Part shown: positions 18,098-23,500 of the stretch, one piece after another | Position numbering within the stretch: position 1 is the stretch's first letter | Layout of the letters: every line of letters starts with the position of its first letter | IMG/VR virus record: IMGVR_UViG_3300017528_000106 | Span: 1 to 24,347 of that record | Source of the DNA: a virus | Length of the DNA: 24,347 nt | Direction: 5' to 3' (one strand) | Made by a program: the position numbers and the translations under genes | The notes under the pieces: generated by a model | What the model saw: the letters and a program-made list of their open reading frames with translations, nothing else | Told to the model about the DNA's origin: nothing | Database searches by the model: none

Positions 18098-19600
18098 ATG
18101 TCGAACCTGCCTGCCTCCAACGCTGAATCTGCCGGACTCCTGATCGCGCCGGAGGTCACGCTTGGGCTGCAGCCGGTCGCGAACTGGCGAACGATGGAGC
18201 CCGATCAGGATCAGATCGGCGACTTCTACCTGCAGGTCAAGCCGATCTCGCCGTCGCCGATCTCACCCGAGCGACAGCAGCGAGCGCCCGAGATTGTCGA
18301 CGCGGACGTGATGCCCAAGCTCGGCATGGATCTCACGTGCGATCTACTGAGCCAGGTTGGCGAGGGCATGCTCCTGGCCAGGGCAAAACATGCCGGCGGC
18401 ACCGGGCAAAGCTTCTTTGTCCCGACCGCACGCACCACGACCGACTATACGGTTGCCGCGCTCGGGGCGTTACCGGTCGGGCTTCTGGTGCACGCCAAGG
18501 GCTGGCTCAACGCGGCCAATAACGGCCTGTTCGTCGTCGGCGCGGCCTCGACGGCGACCGCGGTTAAGGTCGCGGGCGGCGTGGCCGAGACGCCGTCCGG
18601 TTACCTGGCCACACTCGAGGTCGCAGGATGGCGCGGCGCCGCAGGTGATATCGGGCTCGACGCGAACGGTAACCTGACCAGCACCGTCGCGGATTTCACG
18701 ACCATGGGCCTGGTCGCGGGTATTGAGCTGTATATCGGCGGCGTGCCGGGCACCGCGTTTGCGTTCGCGACGACTGGCTACGGTGGCCCGGCCGAGGTTG
18801 CCACCGTCGCGGCGCACCTCGTCACGCTCAAGCGTCGCGCATGGACGGTCGCCGCGGCCGACACCGGCGCGACCAAGACGATCGACATCTACTTTTCGCG
18901 CTGGCTGCGCAACGTCGCGACCACGAGCGCCGACTACCTGGAGCAGAGCTATCAGATCGAGCTGGCGATGAACCGGATCGGCGCCGGGGTCGTGACCGAG
19001 TACGTCTATGCGCAGGGGCTCATGGTGGGCGGTTTTGACATCACCGCGCCGGCCGCGGCGCTGGTCAAGACGTCGCTAAGGCTCATCGGAACCTTTGTCA
19101 CCGATCCATCGACTACTCGAGCCGCGGGCGCGTCGACCGCGCCAGTGCCGCTGGCCGTGGATCGCTTCAACACCACCACCAAGCAGCCGTATACCAAGAT
19201 CCTGAACGCCGCGACCGAGGCCGAGGTCGCGACCGACATCACGAGCTGGGCGCTACACTTCGACAACGGGATCAGCGGCCAGAAACAACACGGCACGTTT
19301 GGCAACAAGCGGATGATCGTCGGCAAGGTTGCCGCGACGCTTGATATGGATCTGGTCGTGACCCAAGACGACGCGATCAAGGCGTGCACCGCAAACACGA
19401 CGCTGTGCTTCGGAACGCTTTTGCGTAACGCCAACGGCGGCGTGTTCGTGAATTTGCCGGCGCTCAAGTTCACCGGTGCGGTGCCGAAGTTTCCCGCGAA
19501 CGGCTCGGTCACGATCAGCCCCAAGGGCGGCGCGTTCATCGAAGCAGTCGGCCGTTACACGCTCGGGCTCTCGGTGTTTGCCTACCTGCCAGCCTCGTAA
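18098..19600 (+). CDS. Major tail (tube) protein (500 aa)
   Basis: ATG at 18098. It lies between the tail terminator and tail chaperone, which is the fixed place of the tail tube gene in siphoviruses. The N-terminus (LLIAPEVTLGLQPVANWRTM) and the repeated beta segments match phage tail tube proteins, as does a C-terminal half with SYQIELAMNRIGAGVVTEYV, DITSWALHFDNGIS and KRMIVGKVAATLDMDLV. At 500 residues it is longer than the common 150-250; the middle (about 110-270) looks like an inserted Ig-like or surface domain. Confidence 0.8.
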   Translation: MSNLPASNAESAGLLIAPEVTLGLQPVANWRTMEPDQDQIGDFYLQVKPISPSPISPERQQRAPEIVDADVMPKLGMDLTCDLLSQVGEGMLLARAKHAGGTGQSFFVPTARTTTDYTVAALGALPVGLLVHAKGWLNAANNGLFVVGAASTATAVKVAGGVAETPSGYLATLEVAGWRGAAGDIGLDANGNLTSTVADFTTMGLVAGIELYIGGVPGTAFAFATTGYGGPAEVATVAAHLVTLKRRAWTVAAADTGATKTIDIYFSRWLRNVATTSADYLEQSYQIELAMNRIGAGVVTEYVYAQGLMVGGFDITAPAAALVKTSLRLIGTFVTDPSTTRAAGASTAPVPLAVDRFNTTTKQPYTKILNAATEAEVATDITSWALHFDNGISGQKQHGTFGNKRMIVGKVAATLDMDLVVTQDDAIKACTANTTLCFGTLLRNANGGVFVNLPALKFTGAVPKFPANGSVTISPKGGAFIEAVGRYTLGLSVFAYLPAS

Positions 19601-19635: not shown

Positions 19636-20109
19636 ATGAAGGTTTCACTCCGGCACGCAAGCATCCCCGTCGAGGCGACGAGAGAATACGACGTCGGGAT
19701 CTCGACCGAGCCGGGTCAGCCGTCGATGGTGCTGCGAGTCAAGGTCGTAGGTGAAGGCAATCGGCCGTACTGGAACGCCATGTTTAAGCGACTGAACGCT
19801 GCGCCGGTCACGCCGTCGAGGCCGGTCGGGGCGATCGAGCCGAAGTTCTCTCCTGAGCAGCTTGAGCGCGGTCGGGTCGATGCAATCGACATCTACGCGC
19901 ACCACATCGTGGTCGGCTGGCGCAATGTCACCGAGGACGGCAAGCCGGCTGCGTGGTCGCCTGCAGCGACAGTAGATCTCTTGACCGCGCTCGTCGCGCC
20001 GCCGCCTGACGGCAGGCCGGACTTGTTCGATGCAATGCGACGGTTCTGCGAGACGGCCGACAATTTTACCGCGGCGACCGTCGAGGCGGCCGAGCTGGGA
20101 AAAGTGTAG
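19636..20109 (+). CDS. Tail assembly chaperone, G-like short product (157 aa)
   Basis: ATG at 19636 with GAGG seven bases upstream; a TTG at 19630 is an alternative but weaker start. The product has a beta-rich first half and a helical second half ending in AAELGKV. Position between tail tube and tape measure, and the frameshift signal at its end, identify it as the lambda gpG analogue: a soluble chaperone that coats the tape measure and recruits tube subunits. Sequence similarity to lambda gpG is not evident, as is usual for this group. Confidence 0.85.
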   Translation: MKVSLRHASIPVEATREYDVGISTEPGQPSMVLRVKVVGEGNRPYWNAMFKRLNAAPVTPSRPVGAIEPKFSPEQLERGRVDAIDIYAHHIVVGWRNVTEDGKPAAWSPAATVDLLTALVAPPPDGRPDLFDAMRRFCETADNFTAATVEAAELGKV

Positions 20110-20480
20110 CCGCGTGGCTGGCGTGGCAAGAGGCGCACGCGGCGACTATCAAGGCGCTCACCGTTGCGCTCGACAGAAAGACCGGTGCTGCGCTGGCCGT
20201 CGTCGAGCGCGATCTCGCTGCGATCTATGCGCAGGAGCCGCCTCGCGACCTCGCGATGGCGATCTGCATCAACGCGTGGCACGAGCTGAGCACCTGCCGG
20301 CCGATCGGGATGGCGGTCGGCGCGATCCCGGTGACTGCAATCCTTGCGTGGTGCGAGGCCGAGGAATTTGACAGAGAGGCGACCCGAATCATGAAACACG
20401 TCATCCGTCAGCTTGATAACGATCACGCCGAGCGTGAAGCCGCGGCGCATATACGCGGCCGAATCATGGGTGGTGGCTGA
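19636..20480 (+). CDS. Tail assembly chaperone fusion, G-T product by -1 frameshift (281 aa)
   Basis: The slippery heptamer GGGAAAA at 20097-20103 is in the right phase (G GGA AAA). Ribosomes slipping back one base continue from AGT at 20103 in an open frame to the TGA at 20478, adding 125 residues to the first 156. The T part has no good start of its own; its first in-frame ATG (20256) lacks a ribosome binding site. The extension contains LSTCRPIGMAVGAIPVTAIL and AWCEAEEFDREATRIM, which resemble a conserved phage tail-chaperone C-terminus. The frame ends in TGATG with the tape measure start. Frameshifting itself is inferred. Confidence 0.85.
20097..20143 (+). promoter_or_regulatory. Programmed -1 ribosomal frameshift signal
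   Basis: Slippery GGGAAAA (20097-20103), a five-base spacer GTGTA, then a perfect 8-bp GC-rich stem GCCGCGTG (20109-20116) with CACGCGGC (20136-20143) around a 19-base loop. The zero-frame stop TAG lies at 20107-20109, between site and stem. All parts match the classical arrangement. Confidence 0.85.
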
Positions 20481-23400
20481 TGGCGTTTCTTCTGACGGTA
20501 AACGTCGACGATGGCAACGCGCCGGCCAAGGTCGCCGCGATCGGCGCGGCGCTCGGCAAGACCACCGAGTCGGCCGACAAGGCCCGAGACGCGATGGGCC
20601 GCTTCGTGGGCAACGCCACAGGGCTTGCCAGTCTCGCGGCAGCCTGTGAAAAAGCGGCGACCTCGACCAAGCACCTGGCCGACGAGGCGACCGTAGGCAC
20701 CGGCACATCAGACAAGCTCAAGGCAGCGTACGAGGCCATGCTCGGCACGCTCGCGCGCGAGGCCGACATCATTGAGCGGGTCCGCGGGCCGATGCGCGAG
20801 TACCGCGCCGACATGGATGCGCTCGAGTCACTCTACAAGCGCAACAAGCTCAGCGCGGCCGAGTACGACGACGAGCTGCAGCGGCTGATCAAGACGCAGG
20901 GCACGATGCACGGCCCGACGCAGGAGCAACAGAAAGCAGGCGGTCCAAGTGTGGCTGGCGTCGCCGGTGGATTCGCCTCGGGCGGGATTCAAGGCGCGCT
21001 GACCGCGCTCCCTGGTATCGGGATGCTGATGGGGGCCGTCGGGCAGATACGAGAAATGGTCCAAGCGTACAAAGAGTTGCAGGACGAATACACGACGCTG
21101 ACGAACAACGCGATGAAGTTTGTGGACGCTGGCCACTCGGTCAACGTGGTGATCGATGAGCAGGTAGCGATGAGCGCGAAGCTCCACGCGAAGCTCGCGA
21201 CGACGATCGGCCTCTATGATTCTGTCCGCGACGGCACCGACAGTCTGAATGTCTCGCATGCTGAACAGAACCGCTTACTGCAGTCGATGGGCGAGGCATT
21301 CATCTTGGCCGGCAAGGGGGTCGAGAATGCAGGCGGGCTGATGGAAAAGTTCAGCTACGCGCTGTCATCGGGAAAGATGGAGACGCGTGAGCTGAAAGGC
21401 ATCATGCGCGAGGTGCCGGAGATCGCCGACATCTGGACTGAGCACTTCGGGATGACTCGCGTAGAGCTGACCAAGGCGCTCGCGTCGGGAAAGATTGGTA
21501 CCGAAGACCTAATGCAGGCAATCCTCGCGGAGACATCTGCACTGGACGCGAACTACGCCAAGCGCAAGGCGACGAACGCTGAACTTGAGGAAGAATTCCG
21601 CCAAAAGGAACGGATCATTACTCAGCGACAGGGAATAATGCCAGGGAGCAGTGGTGGCGCCGAGGGCAACGAAGGCGAGATCTACAGTCGAGCACAAGAC
21701 GAAGCCATCGAGCGAGAGAAGGAGCGGGTGGTCGCACTCAAGGCTAAGCGCGATGAGATGACCAAGATGGTCGGCACAGCGCTCGAGCAGAACGCAGCGC
21801 TTGCGGCTACCGCTGCAGCGGCGGAGCGTGCGGGCATATCGATCGGCGAGTACGACCAGGGCGCGGCAGACGCCACGTCGAGAACGAAGATCTTCCTGGA
21901 GTCTGTCGGAGTCGCGATGCCCAACGCATTTAGCGAGGCCAGGAATCGCGCCGCGCAGCTCAACATCGAGGTCGGCAAGGTCGCCGAATCAAAGGTCGCC
22001 GAGAAGCTTGCCGAGGACGTGCACAAGCTATGGCGCGAGCTGAACAACGTCAACGATGTGCTTGTCGCTCAAAAGAAGCATTGGGACGATATATCGGATC
22101 ACGCCGGCCAGCTGAAGCAGGCAGTGGCGAACAGCCCCGGAGCCCAGCTCCTCGCTCGTGGCTTGCCATCCGGCATGATGGGTATCACCATCACGCGCGA
22201 CGATGCCGAGAACGTGCGGGCGTTGCGTGCACAGACGCTGGAGCTGGACACGGCAAACAGTCAGTTCGGCAAGACGATCAACGAGGCCAAGACCCGCACG
22301 AACGAGCATCGCGATGCGGTCAACGATCTCAAGGGCGCGTACGCGGCGCACGGGATCACGTTCAAGGAGTACACCGACGGCCTCAAGGCGGCAGGCGTTG
22401 AGGAGTCGGCCGCGGCTAAGCTGCTACACGATCTCAATGAACCGGCCAAGCAATGGGGCATCACGCTGGGTGCTCTCGGCGTGTTGCTGCAAGGCCGCAC
22501 CATCGACGCCGCCAAGTACAACGATGAGCTACTGAAGCTTATCAAGTCGCAGGCAGCTGTGAGCGAGGCGGCGAACCTGCATGGGATGGCGGTAGGGCCG
22601 CGCAAGATCGGCGGGATGGAGGTGTCGGTCGCGTACGAGCCGCCGGACCTGAAACAGATCAAGGAGGTCGCTCGTTCGTTTGCCGAGATGGGCATCGAAG
22701 AGAGGCAGGCAACGGCCAGCGAAAACGAATTCACCTGGGCGTTCGACAAAGGCATCGCGACGCAGCTGAAGGCTGTAGATGCGCAGGCACAAGTAAAAAA
22801 GCAAATGCTTGAGACGATTGGTGGGCCACAGAAGCAGTATATGGCGCAGCTGCAGGCGCTCGACGATCTGCTGCGCGAGCAGACCATCGGCACCGACGAC
22901 TATGCGCGCACGTTGGCGGTCCTCCGCGAGAAGCTGCTCGAAGCCAAAAAAGCAGCGCATGAGCTGACCGGAAACGAAGAATTCAGGCTGGCGCTTCGAG
23001 ACTGGGCCAAGGCGGCCGAGGATCTCGGTAGCGCGATCGGCGCTCAACTGACCGGTGATCTTGAGAAGTTCAACGCCGCGATTGTTACCGTCGCCAACGG
23101 CGGGAAGGTCGCCTGGGGTGAGATGGTGATCTCGATGATCGAGGACATCGAAAAGCTCATGTTGAAGTGGCTTGAGGCCAAGGTTGTCATGGGAATTATC
23201 GATGCCGTAGGCACCGGCGCCGCGGCCAGTGCCAGTAACACTGCGGGCACCGATTTCGCTGCGGGGGCCGTGAGTGGTGCGTCGGCCGGTGTTTCGCGCG
23301 TGGCCTCGGTTGGTGCATACCCGTACAGCTCGGCGACCGGTGGCGTGAGCCAGACCGCGGCGGCCAGACAGGCGCCGGTCGTGGTCCAGATCCACAACCA

Positions 23401-23500
23401 CTACGACGAATCCGTCGTGCACGCGGCGATGAACAGCCCCAAGGGCGCGCTCATCATCGCGAACCAGCAACGCGCCAACGCCGGGAGCTTTCGCCGATGA
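20480..23500 (+). CDS. Tail tape measure protein (1006 aa)
   Basis: ATG at 20480 overlaps the chaperone stop as TGATG. The longest gene in the window, mostly helical and Ala/Lys/Glu-rich. A Gly-rich hydrophobic segment lies at about 155-190 and may become membrane-associated on ejection. Residues about 293-350 (ALSSGKMETRELKGIMREVP, then LTKALASGKIGTEDLMQAIL) are the conserved tape-measure N-terminal domain signature. The C-terminus has VQIHNHYDESVVHAAMNSP. No lytic transglycosylase or peptidase motif is seen. It sets tail length; at the usual 0.15 nm per residue, about 150 nm is expected. It is translationally coupled to the lipoprotein gene. Confidence 0.95.
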   Translation: MAFLLTVNVDDGNAPAKVAAIGAALGKTTESADKARDAMGRFVGNATGLASLAAACEKAATSTKHLADEATVGTGTSDKLKAAYEAMLGTLAREADIIERVRGPMREYRADMDALESLYKRNKLSAAEYDDELQRLIKTQGTMHGPTQEQQKAGGPSVAGVAGGFASGGIQGALTALPGIGMLMGAVGQIREMVQAYKELQDEYTTLTNNAMKFVDAGHSVNVVIDEQVAMSAKLHAKLATTIGLYDSVRDGTDSLNVSHAEQNRLLQSMGEAFILAGKGVENAGGLMEKFSYALSSGKMETRELKGIMREVPEIADIWTEHFGMTRVELTKALASGKIGTEDLMQAILAETSALDANYAKRKATNAELEEEFRQKERIITQRQGIMPGSSGGAEGNEGEIYSRAQDEAIEREKERVVALKAKRDEMTKMVGTALEQNAALAATAAAAERAGISIGEYDQGAADATSRTKIFLESVGVAMPNAFSEARNRAAQLNIEVGKVAESKVAEKLAEDVHKLWRELNNVNDVLVAQKKHWDDISDHAGQLKQAVANSPGAQLLARGLPSGMMGITITRDDAENVRALRAQTLELDTANSQFGKTINEAKTRTNEHRDAVNDLKGAYAAHGITFKEYTDGLKAAGVEESAAAKLLHDLNEPAKQWGITLGALGVLLQGRTIDAAKYNDELLKLIKSQAAVSEAANLHGMAVGPRKIGGMEVSVAYEPPDLKQIKEVARSFAEMGIEERQATASENEFTWAFDKGIATQLKAVDAQAQVKKQMLETIGGPQKQYMAQLQALDDLLREQTIGTDDYARTLAVLREKLLEAKKAAHELTGNEEFRLALRDWAKAAEDLGSAIGAQLTGDLEKFNAAIVTVANGGKVAWGEMVISMIEDIEKLMLKWLEAKVVMGIIDAVGTGAAASASNTAGTDFAAGAVSGASAGVSRVASVGAYPYSSATGGVSQTAAARQAPVVVQIHNHYDESVVHAAMNSPKGALIIANQQRANAGSFRR

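Follow-up and report, generated by a model that had tools for sequence, protein, structure and literature searches.

The locus studied here raises the question of how a phage reads two overlapping open reading frames that lie between its tail tube and tape measure genes, the arrangement of the lambda G/GT type. The window, the whole stretch of 24,347 nucleotides that was analysed, is a virus record of IMG/VR that probably represents a fragment, from a soil-type tailed phage, and all features described below are on its plus strand. The upstream neighbour of the two frames is the major tail tube protein gene (18098..19600), which matched Pfam Phage_tube_2 (E 1.8e-6) and PHROG 290 (E 1e-26). The first frame, G (19636..20109, with its ATG at 19636), encodes a G-like short tail assembly chaperone of 157 aa with the C-terminus ...ELGKV (PHROG 313 tail assembly chaperone, E 2e-6). 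The second, T (20103..20480), is a T-like extension of 125 codons plus a stop in the -1 frame, which would be read only as part of a 281-aa G-T fusion, and it matched Pfam Phage_TAC_18 (PF23812, E 9e-8) and PHROG 3817 (E 2e-16). Its Phage_TAC_18 score of 32.6 bits is above the gathering cut-off of 27, and the conceptual G-T fusion is colinear with PHROG 8233, a 271-aa chaperone profile, over residues 84-269. The tape measure protein gene follows (20480..23500; Pfam TMP_3, E 5e-24, and Tape_meas_lam_C, E 2e-8). The gene order proposed in the initial annotation, namely tail terminator, tail tube, G, T and tape measure, was found to be correct. Searches of Rfam and NCBIfam gave no match, PDB sequence searches returned no convincing relatives, and the AlphaFold model of G (pLDDT 47) was too poor for use.

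We then inspected the junction of the two frames, where the initial annotation had listed an in-phase heptamer, a spacer, a stem, a loop and an open -1 frame, and each of these elements was recovered in its place. The 0-frame reads ...CTG GGA AAA GTG TAG, in which the slippery heptamer G GGA AAA (20097..20103) is in phase and the TAG stop (20107..20109), read from the translation, lies one codon past it; nearly all near homologues have this TAG too, placed inside the -1-frame codons GTA-GCN. A 5-nt spacer, GTGTA (20104-20108), separates the heptamer from a hairpin with a perfect 8-bp stem, whose 5′ arm GCCGCGTG (20109..20116) pairs with the 3′ arm CACGCGGC (20136..20143) across a 19-nt loop (20117-20135). 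From 20103 the -1 frame is open for 125 codons, and its TGA stop (20478-20480) overlaps the tape measure ATG at 20480 in the sequence TGATG. Six in-phase XXXYYYZ heptamers occur in the genes of the window, GGGAAAA at 20097 among them. Only behind this heptamer does the -1 frame stay open for long, with 125 codons versus 3-29 behind the other five. Perfect Watson-Crick 8-bp stems at a spacer of 5 were found at 0.08% of window positions, or at 0.4% when spacers of 4-9 were allowed. However, the -1 frame is open for at least 125 codons at 133 of 2647 in-gene positions (5%), and the anatomy alone is suggestive but not conclusive, because long open -1 frames are not rare in the GC-rich DNA of the window. 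The deciding support for a frameshift site at this position is comparative and comes from the sequences of its relatives.

No matches were obtained when the fusion's own peptides were searched in IMG/VR, and close relatives were retrieved from this database with the tape measure and tail tube proteins. In four relatives (L003, L004, L005 and L007), GGGAAAA stands at the same codon, the 0-frame ends 1-5 codons further on, and the -1 frame is open and starts with [SR][VA]AAWL.W. Some members of the near set came from a search by DNA pattern, in which GGGAAA and the Ala-Ala-Trp codon positions were fixed and the third positions used for covariation were left free, and therefore we claim heptamer conservation only from a set that was blind to the heptamer. 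This set was collected with the T-frame alignment alone as the query and comprises 21 viral loci and two genome contigs, 23 relatives in total, of which L077 and L078 are near-identical. Homologues without the heptamer had been named in the initial annotation as evidence against its reading, and this check did not refute it: all 23 relatives have the upstream gene in a frame other than that of T and keep an in-phase slippery motif at the junction. This motif is GGGAAAA or GGGAAAC in the near group, and AAAAAAC, GGGAAAC, AAAAAAG or, in L086, GGGGGAA in the distant relatives. In-phase heptamers are likewise present in six annotated phages, S0112, RcSimone-Hastad, BcepGomr, RDJL Phi 1, BL5 and AN14.

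Three further observations were made on these relatives. The GGGGGAA of L086 (L086:2869-2875), which stands at the same junction, is not of the XXXYYYZ form and matches the 'fivetwo' motif that recurs in the chaperone genes of actinophages; GGGGGAA recurs in annotated actinophage frameshifts (PMC10885494). In distant relatives (L095:1920-1929, L097:1851-1860, L099:2402-2411 and similar loci) the 0-frame stop, unlike that of the window, abuts the heptamer, AAAAAAC being followed by TAA or TGA. The chaperones of L093 and L094 are close relatives that lie on contigs binned as Deltaproteobacteria and as a Thermoleophilaceae (Actinomycetota) MAG, and these contigs may be misbinned phage.

Without a frameshift, T might be made as a separate protein by reinitiation at an internal ATG. 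Such a codon, the first ATG inside the -1 frame, exists at 20256, and a separate 'tail chaperonin' is annotated in several public records. However, inspection of the sequence before ATG 20256 revealed no ribosome-binding site of the Shine-Dalgarno kind, and the slippery sites are kept in all relatives. Moreover, T codons 1-51, which lie upstream of this ATG, are conserved (AAWL.W...EP..D), and two helices confidently predicted from the slip site onwards (T residues 2-25 and 28-43; pLDDT 81-95 over the block) bring the conserved domain up to the slip codon. A protein begun at 20256 would therefore miss part of the T domain, and we consider reinitiation very unlikely. The ORF at 20256..20480 is likely a false gene of the kind that gene callers produce, as the initial annotation had warned, and the records of relatives show similar truncated genes with internal starts. 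S0112, BcepGomr, BL5 and AN14 (L095, L097, L099 and L100) have T annotated as a gene of its own with an internal start, named as a 'tail chaperonin' or chaperone, no T is annotated in the record of RDJL Phi 1, and RcSimone-Hastad is the only one of the six annotated phages in which T is given as a join; no paper describing a frameshift in this phage was found in a literature search. The separate T genes of these four phages are likely misannotations, since an in-phase heptamer joins T to the upstream gene, and T is to be annotated as a joined CDS. A switch of frame by transcriptional rather than ribosomal slippage would also call on the A runs at the junction, and AAAAAAC in the distant relatives would suit it. 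Yet the window has no more than four A in a row, and the switch is kept with GGGAAAC (three A) and with GGGGGAA; we consider this explanation, too, very unlikely. Half-proteins in two frames on a metagenomic contig could finally reflect a sequencing error, or a decayed gene cut by an indel, but the identical split recurs at the same junction in the 23 heptamer-blind relatives, nearly all of them from different samples. These homologues refute such an origin, and we give it practically no weight.

Taken together, the tail-assembly-chaperone domain of T, with the -1 linkage and slippery site in all 23 heptamer-blind relatives and in the six annotated phages, supports the G/GT-type frameshift proposed in the initial annotation. 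We hold it to be very probable that the site directs -1 programmed ribosomal frameshifting of the lambda G/GT type. The anatomy, the homology and the conserved frame switch and slippery site are shown here, whereas slippage in vivo, how efficient it is and what its products do are inferred. In this mechanism, most ribosomes would stop at the TAG (20107-20109) and release the short G chaperone. In a minority, the tRNA-Gly on GGA and the tRNA-Lys on AAA would slip back by one base to GGG and AAA, after which reading would continue as ...LGK-SVAAWLAW... to give the G-T fusion. The hairpin (20109-20143), about 5 nt past the heptamer, would most likely stimulate this slip. By analogy with lambda, G would coat the tape measure protein, with the recruitment of tail tube subunits falling to the T domain, and the ratio of short to fused chaperone may be set at this site.

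Even if the frameshift is real, the hairpin could be a mere by-product, formed because GC-rich codons encode the conserved peptide AAWL.W...HAA, and could have no role in slippage; we therefore weighed the stem separately. The single-sequence tests do not favour selection: the 57-nt local fold of the window was no more stable than its dinucleotide shuffles (z +0.73), and 11% of synonymous -1-frame recodings formed a stem of equal stability at the proper distance (p 0.11). In the family, the stem is missing from the AT-rich L043 and is weak or shifted in L050, L062, L066 and L093, and its inner two pairs are poorly kept among homologues. The initial annotation was right that the stem has eight perfect base pairs at this place, but taken alone the stem is not statistically striking, and it is not universal in the family. 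A rival 7-bp hairpin in the window (GCCGCGT/GCGTGGC, loop 5) was rejected, being absent from the best stems of the other homologues.

In contrast, comparison among the homologues argues against a by-product. In 14 homologues of the same length, 85.7% of the stem cells are paired, versus 22-57% in slid registers, and in five relatives that are one codon shorter the stem re-forms with a shorter loop. Synonymous-recoding p-values over 20 homologues gave a Fisher-combined p~1e-5, a value that ignores relatedness among homologues that are not independent. In the alignment of homologues, covariation was found at the pair 20111-20141, where two Ala codons pair through their third positions: eight of the 14 homologues have C-G, five have G-C and one is an exception. 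Both sides have changed in this wobble compensation (GCC...GCG versus GCG...GCC), and the tree requires at least two independent changes, because supported branches place L005 (C-G) within a group with L062 and L071 (G-C). The covariation is confined to this one pair position and to two independent events, and the formal independent-pairs test had two pairs only, too few to reach significance. Overall, the compensatory change at the wobble pair, seen in at least two lineages, and the combined recoding value lend support to the stem at the sequence level and favour selection beyond coding; we take the stem to be probably under selection, acting as a moderate stimulator and not as an invariant element, and we regard a by-product as unlikely.

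We further lean, with some reserve, towards a wider reading, in which the whole wider TAC_18 family keeps the G/GT switch unchanged but swaps its heptamer freely (GGGAAAA, GGGAAAC, AAAAAAC, AAAAAAG, GGGGGAA), and in which the short/fused chaperone ratio of a largely uncharacterised clade would depend on a hairpin that lies within the most conserved peptide of the chaperone and is kept by matched silent changes. The family supplies natural heptamer swaps and silent stem compensations, which are useful for testing how the tail-chaperone ratio is tuned.

The -1 site of E. coli dnaX consists of the heptamer A AAA AAG with an upstream Shine-Dalgarno sequence and a downstream hairpin. The site in the window shares with dnaX-type sites the layout of heptamer, short spacer and GC-rich hairpin, and differs in the gene that carries it. 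A Shine-Dalgarno-like GAGG (20083-20086) lies 10 nt upstream of the heptamer, which is the distance of the stimulatory sequence in dnaX; as an upstream stimulator it was rejected, since it is not conserved among the relatives. The T domain, the -1 switch and the in-phase slippery site are shared with the chaperones of PF23812 (Phage_TAC_18), PHROG 3817 and PHROG 8233, including those of the Rhodobacter phage RcSimone-Hastad, Xiamenvirus, Yuavirus, BcepGomr and Shewanella phage S0112. These phages differ in having AAAAAAC or GGGAAAC as the heptamer, often abutting the stop, most of them are without a comparable stem, and sequence identity is around 30%.

Lambda gpG is a binding partner of the tape measure protein, and T recruits tail tube subunits, with a ratio of about 30:1 (PMC5009743). 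Conservation of G/GT frameshifting is widespread among long-tailed phages, and its known sites include GGGAAAG and GGGAAAC (PMC5009743). As in lambda G/GT (GGGAAAG) and its counterparts in long-tailed phages, the site described here lies between the tail tube and tape measure genes. As in lambda, too, an in-phase XXXYYYZ heptamer stands near the end of G, the -1 extension ends at the tape measure gene, and the layout provides a short and a fused chaperone, the fusion being predicted here. In contrast to lambda, the heptamer is GGGAAAA or GGGAAAC, the stop of G lies one codon past it, the downstream stem has comparative support, and T is of the TAC_18 family. The lambda G/GT type of -1 frameshift is already known; what is new is the phage group in which it is described and the comparative evidence for its stem.
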